Part shown: one piece after another, positions 29,742 through 31,077 of the stretch | Layout: every line of letters begins with the position of its first letter | Numbering within the stretch: the stretch's first letter is position 1 | Assembly (NCBI GenBank): GCA_947459825.1 | Contig: CANHFH010000012.1 | Span: 1 to 37,283, forward strand | From: Pseudomonadota bacterium | Lineage (GTDB): Bacteria > Pseudomonadota > Gammaproteobacteria > Steroidobacterales > Steroidobacteraceae | Length of the DNA stretch: 37,283 bases | Reading direction: 5' to 3' | The notes under the pieces: model-generated | Told to the model about the DNA's origin: nothing | Databases searched by the model: none | What the model saw: the letters and a program-made list of their open reading frames with translations, nothing else | Program-made: the position numbers and the translations under genes

Positions 29742-30446
29742 TCACTTCTTGGGCTTCGCCGTAGCGGCGGCCTTGGTCGGGACGATCTTCTTGCGCTGCG
29801 CGAGCCGCGCGGCCTTCACCGACGGACGGACGACGACCTGGCCGCCCTCGGAACCCGGCACCGCGCCGCGGATCAGCAGCAGGTTGCGCTCGGCGTCGAC
29901 CTCGACGACCTTGAGGTTCTCGGTGGTGCGACGCGCGACGCCCATGTGGCCCGACATGCGCTTGCCCTGGAACACGCGGCCCGGCGTCTGGCGCTGGCCG
30001 ATCGAGCCCGGGGTGCGGTGCGACACCGACACACCGTGGGAGGCGTTGTGGCCAGCGAAGTTGTGGCGCTTCATGGTGCCGGCGAAGCCCTTGCCGATGG
30101 TGGTGCCGGTGACATCGACCACCTGACCGACCTTGAAGTGGTCCGCCTTGATCTCGGCACCGACGGCGAGCTCCTCGCCCTCCTTGCCGACCACCCGGAA
30201 CTCGAGCAGCGCCTTGCCCGGCGCGGAGCCGGCCTTGGCGTAATGGCCCGCGAGGGCCTTCGAGACGAGCTGCGGACGGCGGGAGCCGTAGGTGACCTGC
30301 ACCGCGCGGTAGCCGTCCTTTTCGGCGGTCTTGACCTGCGTGACGCGGTTCGGAAGGACCTCGATGACGGTCACAGGGACGGATTCTCCCGCCTCGGTGA
30401 ACACCCGGGTCATGCCGCACTTGCGGCCGACGAGACCGATTGCCAT
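29742..30446 (-). CDS. rplC: 50S ribosomal protein L3
   Basis: Early-assembly protein of 234 residues reaching the peptidyl-transferase centre. The block [20 protein letters not shown] contains the glutamine methylated in E. coli L3. The start at ATG 30446 has GAGAGGAAC directly upstream. C-terminal Lys/Ala tail ([10 protein letters not shown]) is lineage-specific. It is separated from rpsJ by 319 bases, far more than the short spacer usual in this operon, and appears to be the first gene of its own transcript. Confidence 0.99.
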
Positions 30447-30694
30447 GTTCCTCTCACTCCTGCGCCTGCTGCGATTGGCAGACACAACAAAAACCTACCC
30501 CGGACACCCGGGGACGCTCCCCGGCAAGCCGGGGACCTGAGGACGACGACTGAAGAAGCCGCGGCGGGGCCCGCCACGGACTGCCTCGAGTGGTCTTGGC
30601 GGCCTCGCCGTTAAGGCCGACCGCCAACCTCGCCCGATAACCGCCGAATCCGGCGGCCCTCCCCGGAAAATGCCCGGGGTCAAAAAGGGCGCGC

Positions 30695-30723
30695 AGTGTA
30701 ATCGCCACCGCCGCCCGATGCAA
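30695..30723 (-). promoter_or_regulatory. Sigma-70 promoter for rplC
   Basis: TTGCAT (30723-30718) and TACACT (30700-30695) on the minus strand with an exact 17-base spacer. Four of six bases match consensus in each hexamer. Start expected near 30688. Confidence 0.65.
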
Positions 30724-30730
30724 GCGGCAT

Positions 30731-30756
30731 GGCCGGGCGGCGCTGGCCGCCCGGCC
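30731..30756 (-). terminator. Hairpin after rpsJ
   Basis: Perfect 11-bp GC-rich stem with four-base loop (30731-30741 with 30746-30756), beginning ten bases past the rpsJ stop codon. No T-run follows. It may end or slow the str-rpsJ transcript just before the rplC promoter, or protect its 3' end. Confidence 0.5.
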
Positions 30757-30765
30757 GACGCCTGG

Positions 30766-31077
30766 TCAGTTCAGCTTGATCTGGACATCCACGCCCGCCG
30801 GCAGCTCGAGACGCATCAGCGCGTCCACGGTCTTGTCGGTGGGGTTCAGGATGTCCATCAGCCGCTTGTGGGTACGCAGCTCGAACTGGTCGCGCGCGTC
30901 CTTGTCGCCGTGCGGGCTGACGAGCAGCGTGTAGCGCTCCATCTTGGTCGGCAGCGGCACCGGCCCCTTGACCGTGGCGCCGGTGCGCTTCGCCGTCTCG
31001 ACGATCTCGCGCGCCGAGTTGTCGATCAGGCGATGGTCGAACGCCTTCAGCCTGATGCGGATGTTCTGGTTGGCCAT
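30766..31077 (-). CDS. rpsJ: 30S ribosomal protein S10
   Basis: Protein of 103 residues of the small-subunit head, also a partner (NusE) in NusB antitermination complexes. Typical blocks are [20 protein letters not shown] and the loop [19 protein letters not shown]. It follows tuf after only 24 bases and is cut off from rplC by 319 bases, so here it belongs to the str transcript rather than heading the S10 operon. Confidence 0.99.

Follow-up and report, generated by a model that had tools for sequence, protein, structure and literature searches.

A leader RNA between rpsJ and rplC with a conserved hairpin at the rplC start, a candidate L4-type operator, in a Steroidobacteraceae genome and its relatives

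Background

In the part of a 2024 review covered here (PMC10931766), the S10 leader of Escherichia coli is described as controlled by ribosomal protein L4, partly via attenuation, and an E. coli-like L4 site is given as absent from Pseudomonas and probably late. The covered part of a second paper (PMC10578931) names the attenuator stem of that leader E and reports that stem D is needed for control by L4. An L4 r-leader standing before rplC has been predicted in Archaeoglobi by Eckert and Weinberg (2020; PMC7247131, as excerpted), and the part of their r-leader table that was covered lists none before rplC for Gammaproteobacteria. Among the literature matches listed, as judged from titles and abstract openings, there was no rplC leader or rpsJ-rplC promoter in Gammaproteobacteria; Fu 2013 might describe part of the present findings. 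PMC8249722, as excerpted, describes cloning in E. coli.

Here we analyze the rpsJ-rplC gap of the window, that is, the whole stretch of 37,283 nucleotides from a Steroidobacteraceae draft genome, for which an original prediction had proposed an S10 operon leader displaced to this gap and acting there as an attenuation device. By linking gene order, covariation, and class-wide searches, we arrive at a different reading, to which we give a probability of roughly 0.6: an S10-type operon begins at rplC, with the gap as its regulatory region, and L4 would exert feedback on rplC translation via a hairpin at the ribosome-binding site.

Methods

The window comes from a draft genome of 2.6 Mb in 200 contigs. 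Its nearest named relatives are all MAGs, of which several carry the label Steroidobacteraceae and many just Gammaproteobacteria or Proteobacteria. Both rpsJ and rplC lay within the fetched stretch in 73 of 80 named relatives, the exceptions being L008, L010, L012, L017, L018, L021, and L075. In the promoter set, the 320 nt before rplC replaced the gap for L008, L010, L012, L017, L018, L021, and L027. The order sampled around genome G366 is called Enterobacterales-like, its S10 being 98% identical to that of E. coli; rpsJ was found in 59/59 of its genomes, and the set examined (n=53) comprised 52 of these 59 (L235-L237, L304-L352) and E. coli.

A strict hairpin was defined as the loop CAATCGNA on a stem of at least 4, counted after removal of loci identical in rpsJ and the 40 nt that follow it. 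Alignment A1 contained 41 sequences, L027 having been dropped as its loop match sits in an unrelated insert. Alignment A2, to which more genomes were added, contained 65 sequences; the duplicates or near-duplicates L011, L044, L062, L063, L085, L089, L104, L109, and L151 were left out. Two covariance models were used: R1, built from the first 41 hairpins, all with a closing C-G pair, and R2, which also has U-A rows; the E. coli hairpin was not used in training R2.

Results

Locus layout

The ribosomal genes of the window lie on the minus strand in the order fusA, tuf, rpsJ, a gap, rplC, and rplD onward; rplC is followed by rplD (L4), rplW, rplB, and others, named by eye from their translations. 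The features to which the analysis refers are as follows.

32292-31102, minus strand: tuf (Pfam EF-Tu)
31077-30766, minus strand: rpsJ (S10; PF00338), 24 nt after tuf, final gene of a str-type cluster
30765-30447, minus strand: rpsJ-rplC gap, 319 nt
30723-30695, minus strand: rplC operon promoter, a poor consensus match but conserved in relatives
30690-30447, minus strand: leader RNA, from its predicted start to the rplC start codon (MFE z-score)
30640-30582, minus strand: element B (25 distinct sequences, covariation, order-wide pattern search)
30513-30489, minus strand: terminator-like hairpin (hairpin and T-run search in the window and relatives)
30487-30460, minus strand: hairpin C, proposed L4-type operator hairpin (covariation, model R2)
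30461-30447, minus strand: ribosome-binding region of rplC (sequence; same region listed in relatives)
30446-29742, minus strand: rplC (L3; PF00297), first operon gene after the leader

The short distance to tuf is the reason for assigning rpsJ to the str-type cluster. The long gap with regulatory elements that had been predicted is present, and long gaps are usual among the nearest relatives (L002-L048, 47 loci), where none of the 41 loci with both genes has a gap shorter than 168 nt and the largest gap is 2659 nt. Farther loci (many of L052-L081) often have short gaps of 10-90 nt. One of the nearest loci, L002 (CAMAQZ010000001.1), comes from a MAG titled Klebsiella pneumoniae with S10 98% and L3 90% identical to those of the window, and this label is very likely wrong.

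Promoter and leader RNA

The promoter consists of a -35 hexamer TTGCAT (30723-30718), a 17-nt spacer, and a -10 hexamer TACACT (30700-30695), followed by GCGCGCCCTTTTT. It had been described as a good promoter with a 17-base spacer; the spacer holds, but the consensus match is unremarkable (7/12), with 69/100 shuffles of the gap scoring as well. A stricter promoter scan of the gap reported none, so promoter strength was rejected as proof and conservation alone carries the promoter. A -10 element followed by a GCGCGCC-type stretch occurs in 41 of 61 named sequences (at least 150 nt, window included) versus 1.4 (maximum 5) in Markov shuffles, an excess that does not amount to 40 independent events because the set includes close relatives. 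The S10 promoter of E. coli resembles it in its -10 and discriminator, TATAATGCGCGGGC.

Folded from 30690, the leader has an MFE of -139 kcal/mol and a z-score of -4.82, and 0/200 shuffles fold as well; the stability of its final 62 nt is not unusual (z -0.37). The region between rpsJ and rplC is thus a structured leader with a promoter ahead that is conserved in relatives and, as had also been foreseen, rpsJ stands outside it, since promoter and leader both lie between the two genes. In L056, L110, L128, and others, a strong hairpin of the GGCCCGGUGC...GCACCGGGCC type occupies the 5' end of the leader, just past the promoter.

Hairpin C at the rplC ribosome-binding site

Hairpin C has a 10-bp stem, UUGUGUCUGC / GCAGGCGCAG, and a loop CAAUCGCA at 30477-30470. 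The ribosome-binding region of rplC comprises AGGAG (30461-30457), at the foot of the hairpin, and GAGAGG (30455-30450). When sequences are anchored on the loop only, and not on pairing, an 8-bp stem emerges around CAAUCGNA; this loop is found in 42 of 61 sequences with a gap of at least 100 nt (60 loci and the window) and is missing from the other 19. In alignment A1, 96.6% of cells are paired and the covariation score is 0.781, versus 0.281 in shuffled and at most 0.155 in slid controls. In alignment A2, 96.5% of cells are paired, 105 cells are compensatory versus 23.2 in shuffles, and the closing base pair varies between C-G (55 rows) and U-A (10 rows). The A2 covariation score is 0.804 versus 0.324 shuffled; while kinship alone can lift sequences above such shuffles without structure, the slid controls drop to at most 0.178. 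Alignment of the gap from relatives, the check proposed with the original prediction, therefore yields a covarying stem in hairpin C.

A strict hairpin is present in 70 of 201 non-Enterobacterales gaps of at least 40 nt, versus 0.055 in shuffled gaps and 1 on the reverse strand, and is absent from the remaining 131. In 64 of the 70, the loop ends 20-44 nt ahead of the rplC start, and the gap of L234, just 48 nt long, holds little besides the hairpin and a ribosome-binding site; these narrow start-codon distances and the small gap of L234 point to an operator of translation initiation. Counting either a strict hairpin or an adjacent model match, at least 24 family codes have the element (8 in the order, 16 elsewhere in the class), all outside the Enterobacterales-like order. 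Tandem CAAUCGNA hairpins, possibly a double operator, occur in the gaps of L064, L076, L118, L119, L122, and L124, where the two loops end 68-85 nt and 20-23 nt ahead of rplC; L118, L119, L122, and L124 share family code f7.

In the genome of the window, hairpin C is the top-scoring match of model R2, at 32.7 bits against 16.8 for the next (the training set includes the window). Over 370 whole genomes of the class there were 28 matches at E<0.003, of which 27 lie just downstream of rpsJ on its strand, the one not adjoining rpsJ being in G354. Sixteen of the 27 genomes are outside training (A2). Thirteen of these 16 carry family codes f62, f67, f82, f95, f103, and f144, which are absent from the coded training genomes, although the named training loci are uncoded and may include these families. 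For 9 of the 16 matches the position was unknown when they were found, and all nine lie between rpsJ and rplC, 23-62 nt before rplC. Under the stricter filters of this search, by which weak matches are lost, 318/370 genomes had no match at E<=0.1, and the hairpin is thus widespread but patchy. The 27 weak rows (E 0.003-0.1) include at least 5 beside rpsJ (G458, G221, G193, G400, G024) and at least 3 away from it (G421, G207, G440).

Searches of the window, of the S10 region of E. coli, and of nine further loci yielded no Rfam 15 family at its gathering score, and the eight matches in 30400-30800 (E 0.53-9.2) all fall under it. Hairpin C is a conserved, covarying RNA structure before r-protein genes and specific to that place, as is characteristic of an r-protein leader.

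Element B and loci where rpsJ and rplC lie far apart

Element B, a highly conserved sequence of the form UCGGGCGAGGUUGG - variable stem-loop - CCAAGACCACUCGAG, occupies the central part of the leader in the window and in some of its relatives, with helices CGAG/CUCG and UUGGNNN/NNNCCAA and a G / GACCA internal loop. Its covariation score is 0.251 versus 0.081 shuffled over 25 distinct sequences, where 6 of the 11 pairs never vary and the double changes come from three pairs. The exact pattern was found in 10/147 genomes of the order, one copy each (reversed control pattern, 0), all 10 in the window's family code (24 genomes sampled). Eleven named loci of the window's clade have element B yet no strict loop at rplC. 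In five loci with element B and without strict hairpin C (L015, L019, L024, L025, L051), a variant hairpin, CUGgCAAUCGUUuCAG, stands further upstream instead.

In three genomes the copy of element B follows rpsJ by about 4 kb (G122), 4 kb (G110), and 8 kb (G106), with S9 peptidase genes in between in G122 and G110 and also an amidohydrolase gene in G110. L018 and L021, taken for G106 and G122, have promoter, element B, and hairpin C directly before rplC, and L027, with a gap of 2659 nt, has promoter and element B before rplC while strict hairpin C is absent. Because promoter and element B stay with rplC where 2.6-8 kb part it from rpsJ (L018, L021, L027), the leader belongs to rplC, and rplC most likely starts an autonomous operon. 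The same kind of gene content is recorded for loci L354 and L355, with about 4 kb holding S9 peptidase genes between rpsJ and rplC (and an amidohydrolase gene in L354); these inserts break a very conserved ribosomal gene order, and that of L356 is about 8 kb.

Comparison with the E. coli S10 leader and with Enterobacterales-like loci

The E. coli leader (L083) has CCCAU[CAAUCGUA]AUGGG in a hairpin which, as it stands ahead of a T-rich stretch, we take to be attenuator stem E. This hairpin was not among the 90 matches of R1, and R2 ranks it first in a search space of 701 bases (15.5 bits, E 0.002; next 0.92). Four genomes of family code f64 have CAU[CAAUCGUA]AUG in the rpsJ-rplC gap, identical over all 14 letters to the E. 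coli sequence. The expected resemblance to the E. coli S10 leader is thereby found at the level of the hairpin, that at the rplC start having the 8-nt loop of the E. coli hairpin. The two leaders also share the placement of a CAAUCGNA-loop hairpin near the start of the L4-encoding operon, a TATAAT-GCGCG-type -10 region, and the order of the genes downstream. They differ in that the window's leader stands before rplC and not before rpsJ, which is left outside, and in having the extra element B. In the window the hairpin abuts the ribosome-binding site, its loop ending 23 nt from the start codon versus 54 in E. coli, and it is followed by this site and not by a T-run, the terminator-like hairpin lying ahead of it.

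Enterobacterales-like leaders are likewise leaders of S10 genes but stand upstream of rpsJ, their rpsJ-rplC gaps being 14-76 nt. All 53 loci have a T-rich stretch no more than 70 nt from rpsJ, and none of the 53 gaps contains a strict hairpin. Upstream of rpsJ, a strict loop occurs in 5/53 loci versus 0.032 expected, although several of the five look related; in E. coli, L306, L308, and L311 this CAAUCGNA hairpin precedes the T-rich stretch, and in L345 it is an earlier hairpin. The link to E. coli is beyond chance but is borne by the minority of enteric-type leaders that have the loop, and some of those are related. As 48/53 loci lack the strict loop, the link to L4 depends on few sequences and the defining weight of the CAAUCGNA loop is limited. 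In L344 and L345, a hairpin that precedes the one next to the T-rich stretch has the loop CAAUCGAA / CAAUCGCA, of which only that of L345 is strict, and a relationship between stem D and the rplC-proximal hairpin is possible. With regard to stem D, a CCNAUYNGG-like hairpin was seen by eye in many enteric-type leaders, and no clear counterpart was seen in the window. Upstream of rpsJ in 260 unique non-Enterobacterales loci, the sole strict match (L038) is spurious, its contig beginning within rpsJ; the upstream stretch is often cut by contig ends, with at least 150 nt in 216/285 loci.

The likeness to the Archaeoglobi L4 leader candidate, which also stands before rplC-rplD-rplW-rplB, concerns gene placement as described in the excerpt of PMC7247131, and the host there is archaeal.

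Terminator-like hairpin and rejected mechanisms

The terminator-like hairpin, CCCCGGGUGUCCGGGG at 30513-30498, is followed by a UAGG spacer and UUUUU at 30493-30489. Hairpin and T-run had been predicted and are present, but this is not the last hairpin of the leader, as had been thought, because hairpin C intervenes before rplC. By the criteria applied, the nearest relatives L002, L003, and L005 share a similar hairpin and T-run at this position, and L004, L006, and L007 do not.

Two further mechanisms were considered and rejected. In a fold of 30560-30444, UCCUC pairs with GAGGA, but the upstream complement expected of a conserved anti-Shine-Dalgarno switch is present in 2/49 loci versus approximately 5.7 expected. 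For rRNA mimicry, the loop and the short conserved pieces of element B gave only chance-level matches against E. coli 23S rRNA, with which the comparison was made since the window's own assembly had no match to it.

Discussion

We propose that transcription from the promoter in the gap yields an mRNA whose 5' leader carries element B as well as an L4-type operator hairpin, with the CAAUCGNA loop, placed at the ribosome-binding site of rplC. Free L4, the product of the second gene, rplD, most likely binds hairpin C; bound L4 would stabilize the hairpin against the ribosome-binding site, and translation of rplC-rplD, together with the genes translated with them, would be lowered. The gene rpsJ would escape this control and go with fusA-tuf. 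L4 is suggested as ligand by the E. coli loop and the operon content, while repression of translation and a regulatory part for element B are put forward as presumed roles.

Another ligand, above all L3 as product of the first gene, or a complex, acting on a real rplC promoter and r-protein leader with convergence on the E. coli loop, is an unlikely alternative. In its favor, hairpin C keeps its distance to rplC and stays with it where rpsJ is far, and the scarcity of the loop among Enterobacterales-like loci points the same way. The E. coli leader, however, which is L4-controlled in the covered part of PMC10931766, contains the best R2 match of its region, and strict loops upstream of rpsJ exceed expectation even though several of them appear related.

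Somewhat less probable still is a transcription attenuator in which hairpin 30513-30498 and its T-run end transcription within the leader when a regulator is bound. Besides their presence in the window, terminator-like sites lie upstream of hairpin C in 36/78 loci versus 8.6 expected, and in 10/20 element B loci versus 3.3 expected; the E. coli leader works partly so, according to the same excerpted review. Against this, the element at this place is common to L002, L003, and L005 only, 4 nt separate its stem from the T-run, and several of the 36 sites are palindromes over the -10 region or are placed to end the rpsJ transcript instead. The attenuation device of the original prediction is consequently poorly supported, as the better conserved hairpin is the one at the ribosome-binding site, and L4 feedback on rplC translation is the likeliest mechanism. 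Given the excess of terminator-like sites, termination may come in addition in some lineages, or the sites may serve to end the rpsJ transcript.

That the gap is only an internal promoter and spacer, with rplC expressed without feedback and the hairpin protecting or processing mRNA, would suit the conserved promoter and the 19 long gaps without the loop, but is very improbable in view of the near-invariant loop, the compensatory stem changes, and the hairpin in the gap of L234, which leaves little room for a promoter.

With L4 feedback on rplC translation as the preferred reading, the notion of a displaced leader is only partly retained: the leader is rplC-proximal in the window, but the direction may be backwards, as either placement could be derived when the rplC-proximal form spans at least 24 family codes and the rpsJ-proximal form was seen only in the Enterobacterales-like order. 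We tentatively consider a broader scenario, itself somewhat doubtful, in which Gammaproteobacteria have an ancient L4 operator located at the start of rplC, the E. coli leader is a relocated, derived copy from the parting of the S10 genes and the str operon, surveys on the rpsJ side missed the older form, and element B, in the window's family, is a new second RNA element adding another r-protein or assembly signal.

The 48-nt gap of L234 offers a natural small operator, and separations of the L018, L021, and L027 type are natural test cases. Surveys limited to the E. coli position would miss the rplC-proximal switch. If L4 binds hairpin C, its control is older and wider than the 2024 review has it, with the place shifted by one gene and the ligand kept. 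The switch that probably tunes r-protein production in these bacteria sits one gene further downstream than that of E. coli and has its own start signal. S10 is also the factor NusE, and if L4 binds hairpin C, S10 would lie outside L4 control in those lineages.
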